The position numbers and the translations under genes are program-made. A stretch of DNA of 64,000 nt, taken from NCBI GenBank assembly GCA_018398805.1, contig JAGFBZ010002311.1, positions 1-64,000 on the forward strand, given 5' to 3'. This stretch comes from Hirundichthys speculiger (lineage: Eukaryota; Chordata; Actinopteri; Beloniformes; Exocoetidae). This document shows positions 49,601 to 55,229 of the stretch, in pieces (position 1 is the first letter of the stretch; every line of letters begins with the position of its first letter). A model generated the notes under the pieces. The model was not told the origin of the DNA. It worked only from the letters and a program-made list of their open reading frames with translations, and ran no database searches.

Positions 49601-52600
49601 ATGCAGCTGTCCAGCAGTGGAATGAGCTGCACCTAGTTACGTTCATTTAAATGCCCTTGTAAAGATGTACAGTAGCTACAGTGCTGCAGCAGTCACAGGT
49701 TCAACTCCCAACCTGTGACCCTTGCATGTCTTCCCCTTTTGGCATTGCCCCACTTTCCCAAATTACCACTGTCAAAAAAAAAAAAAAAAAGTGTTTGTGA
49801 AGCCATTTGAGTTGCCTTTGTGTATAAAATGTGTTATACAAATAAACTTCCCTTGGCACGTACGAAAGCAACCAAATCCAAACACAGCTTACTTTGAACT
49901 GAAAAACGTCCCATGTGTTTTTTGTATCTCAATATGAAGCCTTTGCTGTGAGACATCATGTGATTTTGTGTTTTATTATAGACTTTACAGTATACTGTCA
50001 GTGAAAACGTCTGAACCTTGTTCAAGGAATTATGGGTGCATGTGTGTGCATGTCCCTTTTACCGTCCACTCCTGTTAGAGCCAGAGCTTTATTAACTTTA
50101 CTCAGCACAGTAGCCTTTTTTGAAGGAGGCTTTCCCTGAGGAAACAAAAAGAGAAAATGGTCAGATCTCCATTTTAAACAGCTCCAAACTGGTCGAGAGG
50201 GGAGAGGAAATTAGTCACAATCCAGTAACGGCCGTCTAAGGTAAAAGGCTTTCTGGGAGTTTGGCAAGTTTTTATTTGAGTTTAAAGTTGATTATAACAG
50301 TCACCACTGTTGCTTGGACAGCATGACATCCCAGAAATATTACAATAACTGCAATTTTATGACCTTTTTTTTGCCCCCATAATAAAATATTACAAAAAGG
50401 GTTAGAAAAAAAACTCAAGAACAGAGCCTCTGCTCCTTCACATCGAGAGGAGCCAATTAAAGCGGTTCAGGCATCTGAACCACTGGTTGGGATGGCTCTT
50501 GGATCCCTCCTGGTGGTGGAGTTCTGGAGGATGTATCCAATGAGGAGGAGGTCTTGAAGCAGAACCAAGACATGCTGGAGAGATTATATCCCCTGTGTGG
50601 CAAGGGAACAACCTTGTCATCTACACAGAAGACCTGGTGGAGCAGACCTGGGCCAGAGATGTCGAGGCCTCTCGGCTTGTGACTGAAACCTGGACAAGCA
50701 TAATTTAAAGGCTGGATGGATACAGCTGCTATTGCTAAAGATATTCCTAAACCCCCTGGACCCTCCTTTTTGCCTTTATTCTTCATGGGGAAGTGGGTCG
50801 CAACCTGTTTTCATGGGTCGTGGGTTTGCCTGGGGGAAGGAAAAAAAAAATAATAATAATAAAAAAAAAAAAAAGCGTGTCATTCATACTCCTTAACAGT
50901 AGATGGTGATAATGCCCTGTAATGCGAGTTGACACTCGCCAGTTCACACCATAGAAAAAGACCTGGAACATTTGTTTACATATGTTGAGCATGGTGAAAC
51001 ACAGATACAACGAAGAATATATGAGATATGGATTTTCTTATCTTTAAGACAAAGGTCAGTGAGTGGTTATTCAGCTAAAACTATATATTTTGAGTTCTTT
51101 TTGAAACTACTGCTCAGTGGTTGCACTGTTTTATTTCATATTTGTGCATAAAAGCACTGTGGAGTCTTAAAAATGGCTGTTACTGAAATGTTATGATTGT
51201 TATGTCAGCTTTATGATTAATCCTTAAATAAGTGACTAGATAGTTTTGCTGCAGATTTATTAGATGCACATCCATTATGTTAATATTTGCTCCATGTTCA
51301 TTTTGAGCCCTTGATTTGGGTCACCTTGTCATTTGAGAGACCATCCCAAAGGTGCTCCTTACCGGATTGATTAAAATCTGATGAGCCTGAACAATTGATG
51401 CAAGGCAGTTTGGATCCATGCTCTAATGTTGTTTACGTCAATTCTGACCCTACCAGCTAAAAACAAGATTCATCAGACCAAGGCGGACAGTTTTCCAAAC
51501 TTTTATTGCCCAATTTTGGTGAGCCTGTATGAACTGCAGCCCTGGTTTCCTGTTTTTAGCTGACAGGACTGGTGCTTGAGGTGGTCCTCTATGCTGTGGC
51601 CCATCTGCTTCAAGGATCCATGTCTGCACACCTTAGCTTTAATATCTGGTTATTTCAGTTGTTGTTGCCTTTCTATCATCATCATCATCTCTAACCAGTC
51701 TGCTCATTCTCCTCTGACATCGACGAAGCATTCTGATCCACACAACTGCTGTTCACTGGATATTTTCCTTTTTCTTCTGACCATTCTCTGTAAACCCTAG
51801 AGATCTACACGCCCAGGTGTAATGGTGCCACGTGACAGGCTGATTAGCCGTTTTTTGTTAAACACCTGAACAGCTGGACCTGATAAAGTGACCGATGACT
51901 GTGAATCACTTGCAGACTTGGAAAAGGAGTTCAGAGAAAGTTGTTTCAGACAAATGTTTTGTCCCATCGTCTTCACTCCACCGACTTACCAGCTGGTCCA
52001 GATACATGGCGGAGGGATCTTGTGCGTGGATGAGCTGGATCGGTACCGCGGTGGTTTTCAGGAGCCGTGCCCGACGGCTCAGCTGATGCTGCGCGTCGAA
52101 GTAGTCGTCCGGGTGGAAATGCTTGTGGCAGACGAAGAGCTTGCTGAGCGCGTGGAGGGGAGTGTTTACATCCATGTTCAGAGTCTCCAGCCATTGCCTC
52201 AGTCGCTCCGGATCGCCGAGTGGAAACCGGTGGAAGACGACGTTAGGTCGTCTGGTCATGTGGCACGAATCGACGCAACACGTTTGAACCATTTGAACTG
52301 TTTTTTTCCCCAGTTGACTCCGACTTCTGAATTAAACAGAAGAGCCAGAAAAGCACAGAAGTCGCTGTGCTAAGATTTCAAGTCCAGCGCGGGCATCTTC
52401 TTCTTCTACTATTGTTTTTTCCTGCAGCGTGAGTGCGTAAATGAGTTCTGAGAATACTGCCACCACGTGTTCAACACAAGCCATTAAGGGGAATTAAAGG
52501 GGACATGATCATGATAAAGGTTCTCCCAACAATTGAATGGAATTGACCTGGATAAATGAGAATATCCACAGAACCATGATAAAAGTAAAACTTTGTTTGC

Positions 52601-55229: not shown

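Follow-up and report, generated by a model that had tools for sequence, protein, structure and literature searches.

The L3MBTL2 gene in the window (the whole stretch of DNA analysed here, 64 kb from Hirundichthys speculiger) contains two separate exons that encode THAP domains, called THAP-a and THAP-b below. We consider it likely, with good confidence, that teleost L3MBTL2 is a two-promoter gene in which these exons provide alternative heads of the protein. The upstream promoter would give the standard form, with THAP-a, a linker, an FCS finger and four MBT repeats. A promoter in intron 3 would give a shorter form, whose first exon (THAP-b) would be spliced directly to the exon that starts at 50135; this form would retain the MBT repeats and the C-terminus, and would lack both THAP-a and the FCS finger.

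Organization of the L3MBTL2 gene

The gene is on the minus strand, with its coding sequence running from 55229 to about 40.8 kb (a span of about 14 kb). Exons were placed by reading the sequence and by tblastn with the protein of a relative, Xenentodon (P0002). The features are:

55051..56250, no strand: CpG-rich block, main promoter region of l3mbtl2 (CpG o/e 0.86; window median 0.38)
end at about 55815: putative 5' non-coding exon, of which the donor GTAAGT is seen
54883..55229, minus: E1, THAP-a exon, 347 nt as printed; donor gtgagt; frame break inside 55187-55174
54688..54802, minus: E2, linker exon; donor gtaagc; ends in phase 1
54409..54543, minus: E3, FCS zinc-finger exon; donor gtaaga; frame break inside 54433-54420
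51651..52700, no strand: CpG-rich block around the THAP-b exon, proposed intronic promoter (o/e 0.78, 43 CpG)
51990..52292, minus: THAP-b exon, open from ATG to donor gtaagt; ends in phase 0; PF05485 match
50063..50135, minus: E4 (GKPPSKKATVL...); acceptor ttcctcag, phase 0, common to both N-termini
49168..49244, minus: E5, common part ahead of the first MBT repeat
48370..48487, minus: E6, holds the first MBT repeat; closest PDB entry 3F70 (human L3MBTL2), E-value 7.5e-13
47622..47757, minus: E7, MBT; frame break inside 47728-47714
47353..47438, minus: E8, MBT part
46956..47202, minus: E9, MBT part
46288..46355, minus: E10
45297..45401, minus: E11, MBT part
44965..45113, minus: E12, MBT part; frame break inside 45071-45057
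44709..44791, minus: E13, MBT part
44294..44531, minus: E14, fourth MBT repeat
40789..44130, minus: C-terminal coding pieces (44130-44062, 42978-42796 and 41019-40789), from tblastn with Xenentodon P0002; ends approximate

The preliminary description of this DNA had placed two THAP exons on the minus strand (55229-54883 and 52292-51990), and both are borne out, with the same ends and donors. It had also put both exon ends in phase 0: this holds for THAP-b, which is open, and for THAP-a it holds only if a frame break inside the exon is passed over. The acceptor in front of 50135 is, as had been proposed, in phase 0 and common to both forms.

The THAP-b exon is open across 101 codons and matches PF05485 with 54.5 bits (cut-off 23.9; E-value 2.1e-14). 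The THAP-a exon of the window aligns to P0002 on both sides of its frame break (tblastn), and the Pfam evidence for it comes from the domains of relatives: P0002, P0121, P0161 and P0015 all match PF05485 there. Further downstream, E3 matches the FCS finger of Xenentodon (tblastn) and that of a human L3MBTL2 probe. All four MBT repeats are present in the window gene (best PDB matches 3F70 and 3CEY), and Pfam finds four MBT stretches in nine out of ten relatives scanned; the exception, P0132, is a fragment that has no MBT.

The THAP-a form in teleosts

Residues 1-200 of the THAP-a form were used as a query (E-value cut-off 0.001), which gave 1356 proteins; the best 120 were examined. It had been suggested that teleost L3MBTL2 proteins be searched for an N-terminal THAP domain, and PF05485 is present in all of the 120 matches listed. 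THAP and MBT are both found in 119 of these 120 (the exception is P0097, 392 aa), 118 match the FCS model (all but P0101 and P0102), and THAP-a, an FCS finger ahead of the MBT part, and MBT occur together in 117. The predicted junction from THAP-a through 54802-54688 to the FCS finger is thus seen as gene models in other fishes. The closest relative among the matches listed is 77% identical to residues 1-200 of the THAP-a form.

A second query, THAP-a of Scleropages, gave 76 proteins, all 76 with THAP and MBT, and its matches include zebrafish, Arapaima, Paramormyrops, Anguilla, Conger, herring, catfish, pike and salmon. Every named match to THAP-a is a teleost (among the best 120 of 1356 and the 76 proteins of the Scleropages query); none was seen outside teleosts, which is a weak negative, as the word filter of the Scleropages search missed THAP-a proteins that the first query had found. 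Because this spread includes both zebrafish and bonytongues, the THAP-L3MBTL2 fusion would be at least as old as the common ancestor of living teleosts. In addition, 11 distinct proteins (at least nine from the THAP-a query and two more from the Scleropages query) come from a source labelled 'lgn', which we take to be read assemblies. Their contigs measure 2.6-3.7 kb and hold open frames of 780-874 aa; they must represent spliced sequence, since the window gene takes up about 14 kb.

Five pipefish THAP-a models (P0101, P0102, P0135, P0162 and P0163) have neither a Pfam match for FCS nor the start of the finger (C[DE]MC), and some pipefishes may have lost the FCS finger independently of THAP-b. 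One of them, P0135 (Dunckerocampus), has two THAP stretches, with the first 261 residues (from THAP-a to the first MBT) repeated unchanged; we set this two-THAP model aside, as such a repeat is likely a duplication in the assembly or in the model.

The THAP-b form and the common junction

When residues 1-130 of the predicted THAP-b/MBT form were used as a query, 14 proteins were found among 123 candidates, with 53-70% identity to the form in the window. These identities, together with the 77% of the best THAP-a relative, argue that the THAP exons are not chance. All 14 species with THAP-b belong to the Percomorphaceae.

THAP-b is joined to MBT without an FCS finger in 12 out of 14 matches, as had been predicted from the splicing of THAP-b to 50135. 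Pfam searches on three of the twelve FCS-less proteins (P0122, P0123 and P0133) give THAP, four MBT and no FCS. Eleven of the twelve models are labelled L3MBTL2 'isoform X' (genera Siniperca, Archocentrus, Etheostoma, Plectropomus, Thunnus, Parambassis, Trachinotus, Girardinichthys, Poecilia, Xiphophorus and Cololabis), and the twelfth, from Kryptolebias (376 aa), is named only as a THAP-type protein. The remaining two matches, Nibea P0040 and Ilyodon P0132, hold THAP-a, FCS and THAP-b in one model, and this exon order is conserved in both gene models. FCS-containing and FCS-lacking forms, between which fish had been proposed to switch, are therefore both found as fish gene models (117 out of 120 listed, and 12 out of 14).

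Archocentrus, Trachinotus and Kryptolebias are among the percomorphs for which both forms are modelled. The two forms were compared in six THAP-a/THAP-b pairs, three of them from a single species each and three from two species of one genus. In all six pairs the sequences first coincide (over at least 15 residues) from the same residue onwards, namely the G with which exon 50135 begins. All THAP-b forms come from gene builds: no direct transcript was found for THAP-b, and none of the 14 matches comes from the short-contig 'lgn' source.

Relationship and possible DNA binding of the two THAP domains

THAP-b of the window shares 26% identity over 91 residues with THAP-a of the window and 21-27% with three fish THAP-a domains, compared with 35% for human THAP2 and 32% for human THAP1. 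A tree was built from 12 THAP-b, 10 THAP-a and three human domains (25 in total; three of the 15 THAP-b rows, namely P0131 and the copies internal to P0040 and P0132, were left out). THAP-a and THAP-b each form a group of their own (support 97/98), and the link between the groups has weaker support (68/78). Judged by sequence, THAP-a and THAP-b are not recent duplicates. An origin of THAP-b by tandem duplication of THAP-a would be compatible with the two-promoter reading, and both are single-exon domains with phase 0 ends in one gene; but we regard this origin as unlikely, given the separate tree groups and the greater closeness of THAP-b to the human proteins than to THAP-a, although the two may go back to an old duplication.

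The zinc ligands (C2CH) and core residues are conserved in both domains, and C5, C10, P24, W34, C55, H58, F59, A82 and P84 are invariant in the 19 aligned rows of the THAP-b test. By sequence as well as by fold, THAP-b is closest to THAP2 and THAP1; for THAP-a, the best sequence match is THAP2. The structure model of THAP-b is of modest quality (mean pLDDT 67.8), and the four structures ranked highest against it are all THAP domains, none of them below an E-value of 0.001. The fish domains share with THAP1 and THAP2 the C2CH ligands and the invariant residues P, W, F, A and P, and differ from them in sitting on an MBT protein.

Another difference lies in the loop after the conserved W, which THAP1 uses on DNA: it is strongly basic in THAP1 and THAP2, and neutral to acidic in fish THAP-b. 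By a crude count, its charge is +4 in THAP1, +5 in THAP2 and on average +2.0 in 122 THAP-a rows (those of 165 proteins that match the pattern; the wrong W was taken in at least one, P0147). In THAP-b it is -1 or -2 in eight out of 10 rows measured at the right W; the wrong W was taken in three out of 13 rows (P0124, P0125 and P0128, about -1 by eye). As its loop is not basic, unlike that of THAP-a, THAP1 and THAP2, THAP-b may read DNA differently or weakly. The net charge of the whole domain is not clearly different (+3 to +14 for THAP-b, 0 to +12 for THAP-a).

Frame breaks in the window gene

The gene has four frame breaks, in E1, E3, E7 and E12, and all of them look single-base. The ATG frame of THAP-a hits a stop at codon 18, with the rest of the domain in another frame; on either side of the break the exon is 93% and 74% identical to Xenentodon P0002. 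Similarly, the phase 0 end of the FCS exon holds only if its break (54433-54420) is passed over. Since each break seems to involve one base and conservation of the protein is good on either side, they are probably assembly errors (indels). The four breaks fall within about 2 kb of coding sequence, and the RANGAP1 exons nearby have no clear break (one tblastn judged by eye, with only about 1 kb compared), as might be expected if this l3mbtl2 copy were decaying in the Hirundichthys speculiger genome and the breaks were real mutations. We find such decay improbable, however: ten other modelled L3MBTL2 exons and THAP-b have no stop, the splice sites are intact, and matches within exons are about 67-93% identical to Xenentodon.

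A proposed second promoter in intron 3

The THAP-b exon is inside a CpG-rich block, which makes a second promoter in intron 3 the likely driver of the THAP-b form; THAP-b would then start a transcript of its own in Hirundichthys speculiger. CpG o/e is 1.12 for the THAP-b exon, and 0.18 and 0.24 for the flanking intron stretches; it is 1.02 for the region before THAP-a, and 0.40-0.58 in five other exons with more than 50% GC (THAP-a, E6, E7, E9 and E14). CpG richness is, however, a non-specific sign of a promoter. The 250 nt ahead of the THAP-b ATG have an o/e of only 0.61, and the sign is noisy in small exons (0.78 for the FCS exon, on 5 CpG). There are 11 CpG-rich blocks in the 64 kb, including those of THAP-b and the main start and one at 19901-21000, which covers the first RANGAP1 exon (match from 20831); three others are in the 3' part of the gene (41551-42550, 42801-43450 and 43501-44150), where no start is known.

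The reading frame bears on whether THAP-b is a first exon. Going upstream from the THAP-b ATG, the nearest in-frame stop is reached after 42 nt; the interval holds four AGs, none of which keeps the frame from E3, and a first exon is therefore favoured over a cassette exon. Within the exon itself, an AG first occurs in frame at nt 87, past both N-terminal cysteines. We therefore think it very unlikely that THAP-b is an internal cassette exon, with some transcripts carrying THAP-a, FCS and THAP-b, even though the models from Nibea (P0040) and Ilyodon (P0132) hold two THAP stretches and one FCS: the THAP-b piece of P0040 is without its first two cysteines, and P0132 (347 aa) has no MBT and reaches THAP-b via a stretch unlike the other forms.

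Six A(A/T)TAAA motifs follow the THAP-b donor on the same strand before exon 50135 is reached, and premature polyadenylation may occur after THAP-b. A short independent gene within the intron, with its own polyadenylation, would suit these motifs and the surrounding CpG-rich block, but is very unlikely, as THAP-b is joined to MBT in 12 out of 14 relatives' models, the junction residue is the same in the six pairs compared, and the phase 0 donor fits the phase 0 acceptor.

Possible roles in PRC1.6

Mammalian L3MBTL2 associates with MGA, MAX, E2F6, PCGF6 and RING1B (accessible parts of PMC5806899 and PMC12435664). The same parts of PMC5806899 describe it as a histone-interacting subunit, with DNA specificity coming from MGA/MAX and E2F6; in human cells, it supports the binding of PRC1.6 at some promoters, where MGA/MAX and E2F6 are the DNA binders. 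The THAP domains of fish would give L3MBTL2, and hence PRC1.6, a DNA or chromatin address of its own.

In mouse cells, L3MBTL2 achieves rescue only with its zinc finger and its full set of four MBT repeats, and these help bind HDAC1, G9A and RING1B (accessible part of PMC12435664). As the mouse rescue depends on the zinc finger, the FCS-less fish form would be expected to bind RING1B, HDAC1 and G9A more weakly. A tentative extension, possible but rather doubtful, is that the two forms act as a switch of PRC1.6 in percomorphs: the THAP-a form would bring its own THAP DNA address, and recruit co-repressors via its FCS finger, and the THAP-b form would occupy chromatin without full co-repressor binding and so oppose or redirect silencing (e.g. 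in the germ line or the early embryo). If teleost L3MBTL2 has a THAP domain of its own, fish and mammals would differ in how PRC1.6 is targeted, a point of concern for users of zebrafish as a Polycomb model. The FCS-less percomorph form would also be a natural test of the role of the FCS finger, as mouse L3MBTL2 without the zinc finger fails in rescue (PMC12435664, accessible part).

Comparison with known systems and annotations

The fish gene is like human and mouse L3MBTL2 in its FCS finger, four MBT repeats and C-terminal part, and in having RANGAP1 nearby. It appears to be unlike human L3MBTL2, which is not known to carry a THAP domain, in its two alternative THAP N-termini and its form without FCS. 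Zebrafish E2F6 has reportedly acquired a THAP domain too: it is likewise a PRC1.6 subunit, but a different one; our literature search, judging by its listings, turned up nothing on that fusion. A looser parallel is the DREAM complex of worms, a repressor system that works with two different THAP proteins on distinct target sets (accessible part of PMC8552245); this is an analogy only, as those THAPs are separate proteins and the fish THAPs would be alternative heads of one MBT protein.

Both forms are already in public gene annotation, unremarked, and are not described in the literature we searched. No paper was found that combines 'THAP domain' with L3MBTL2; none of the papers listed for L3MBTL2 with THAP word stems is on this fusion, judging by the listing, and no title on this protein was found among those on THAP and polycomb in fish or on THAP-MBT fusions (including PMC12538751, seen in part). 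Two papers on fish Polycomb genes (PMC9916924 and PMC7230241) have no word beginning with THAP in the accessible main text.

Genomic neighbourhood and other features

RANGAP1-like exons are found at 20831-23979 on the plus strand (tblastn, human probe). RANGAP1 lies near L3MBTL2 in the human gene order, and the orthologous neighbourhood with RANGAP1 is present in the window. The RANGAP1-like stretch may be drawn out to 20831-28336 (plus strand), with its last piece (28205-28336) a weak match (E-value 4e-4). On the minus strand, open pieces at 6579-15565 show CCCH-type cysteine/histidine patterns by eye and are possibly ZC3H7B, a neighbour of L3MBTL2 in human. A tandem repeat at 28457-29080 (minus strand), with WDQNWDQSWDQ in open frames, is probably a minisatellite. 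Remains of Tc1-type transposases or LINE reverse transcriptases were seen by eye at 56981-57244, 19646-19861, 58194-58433 and 59613-59972.
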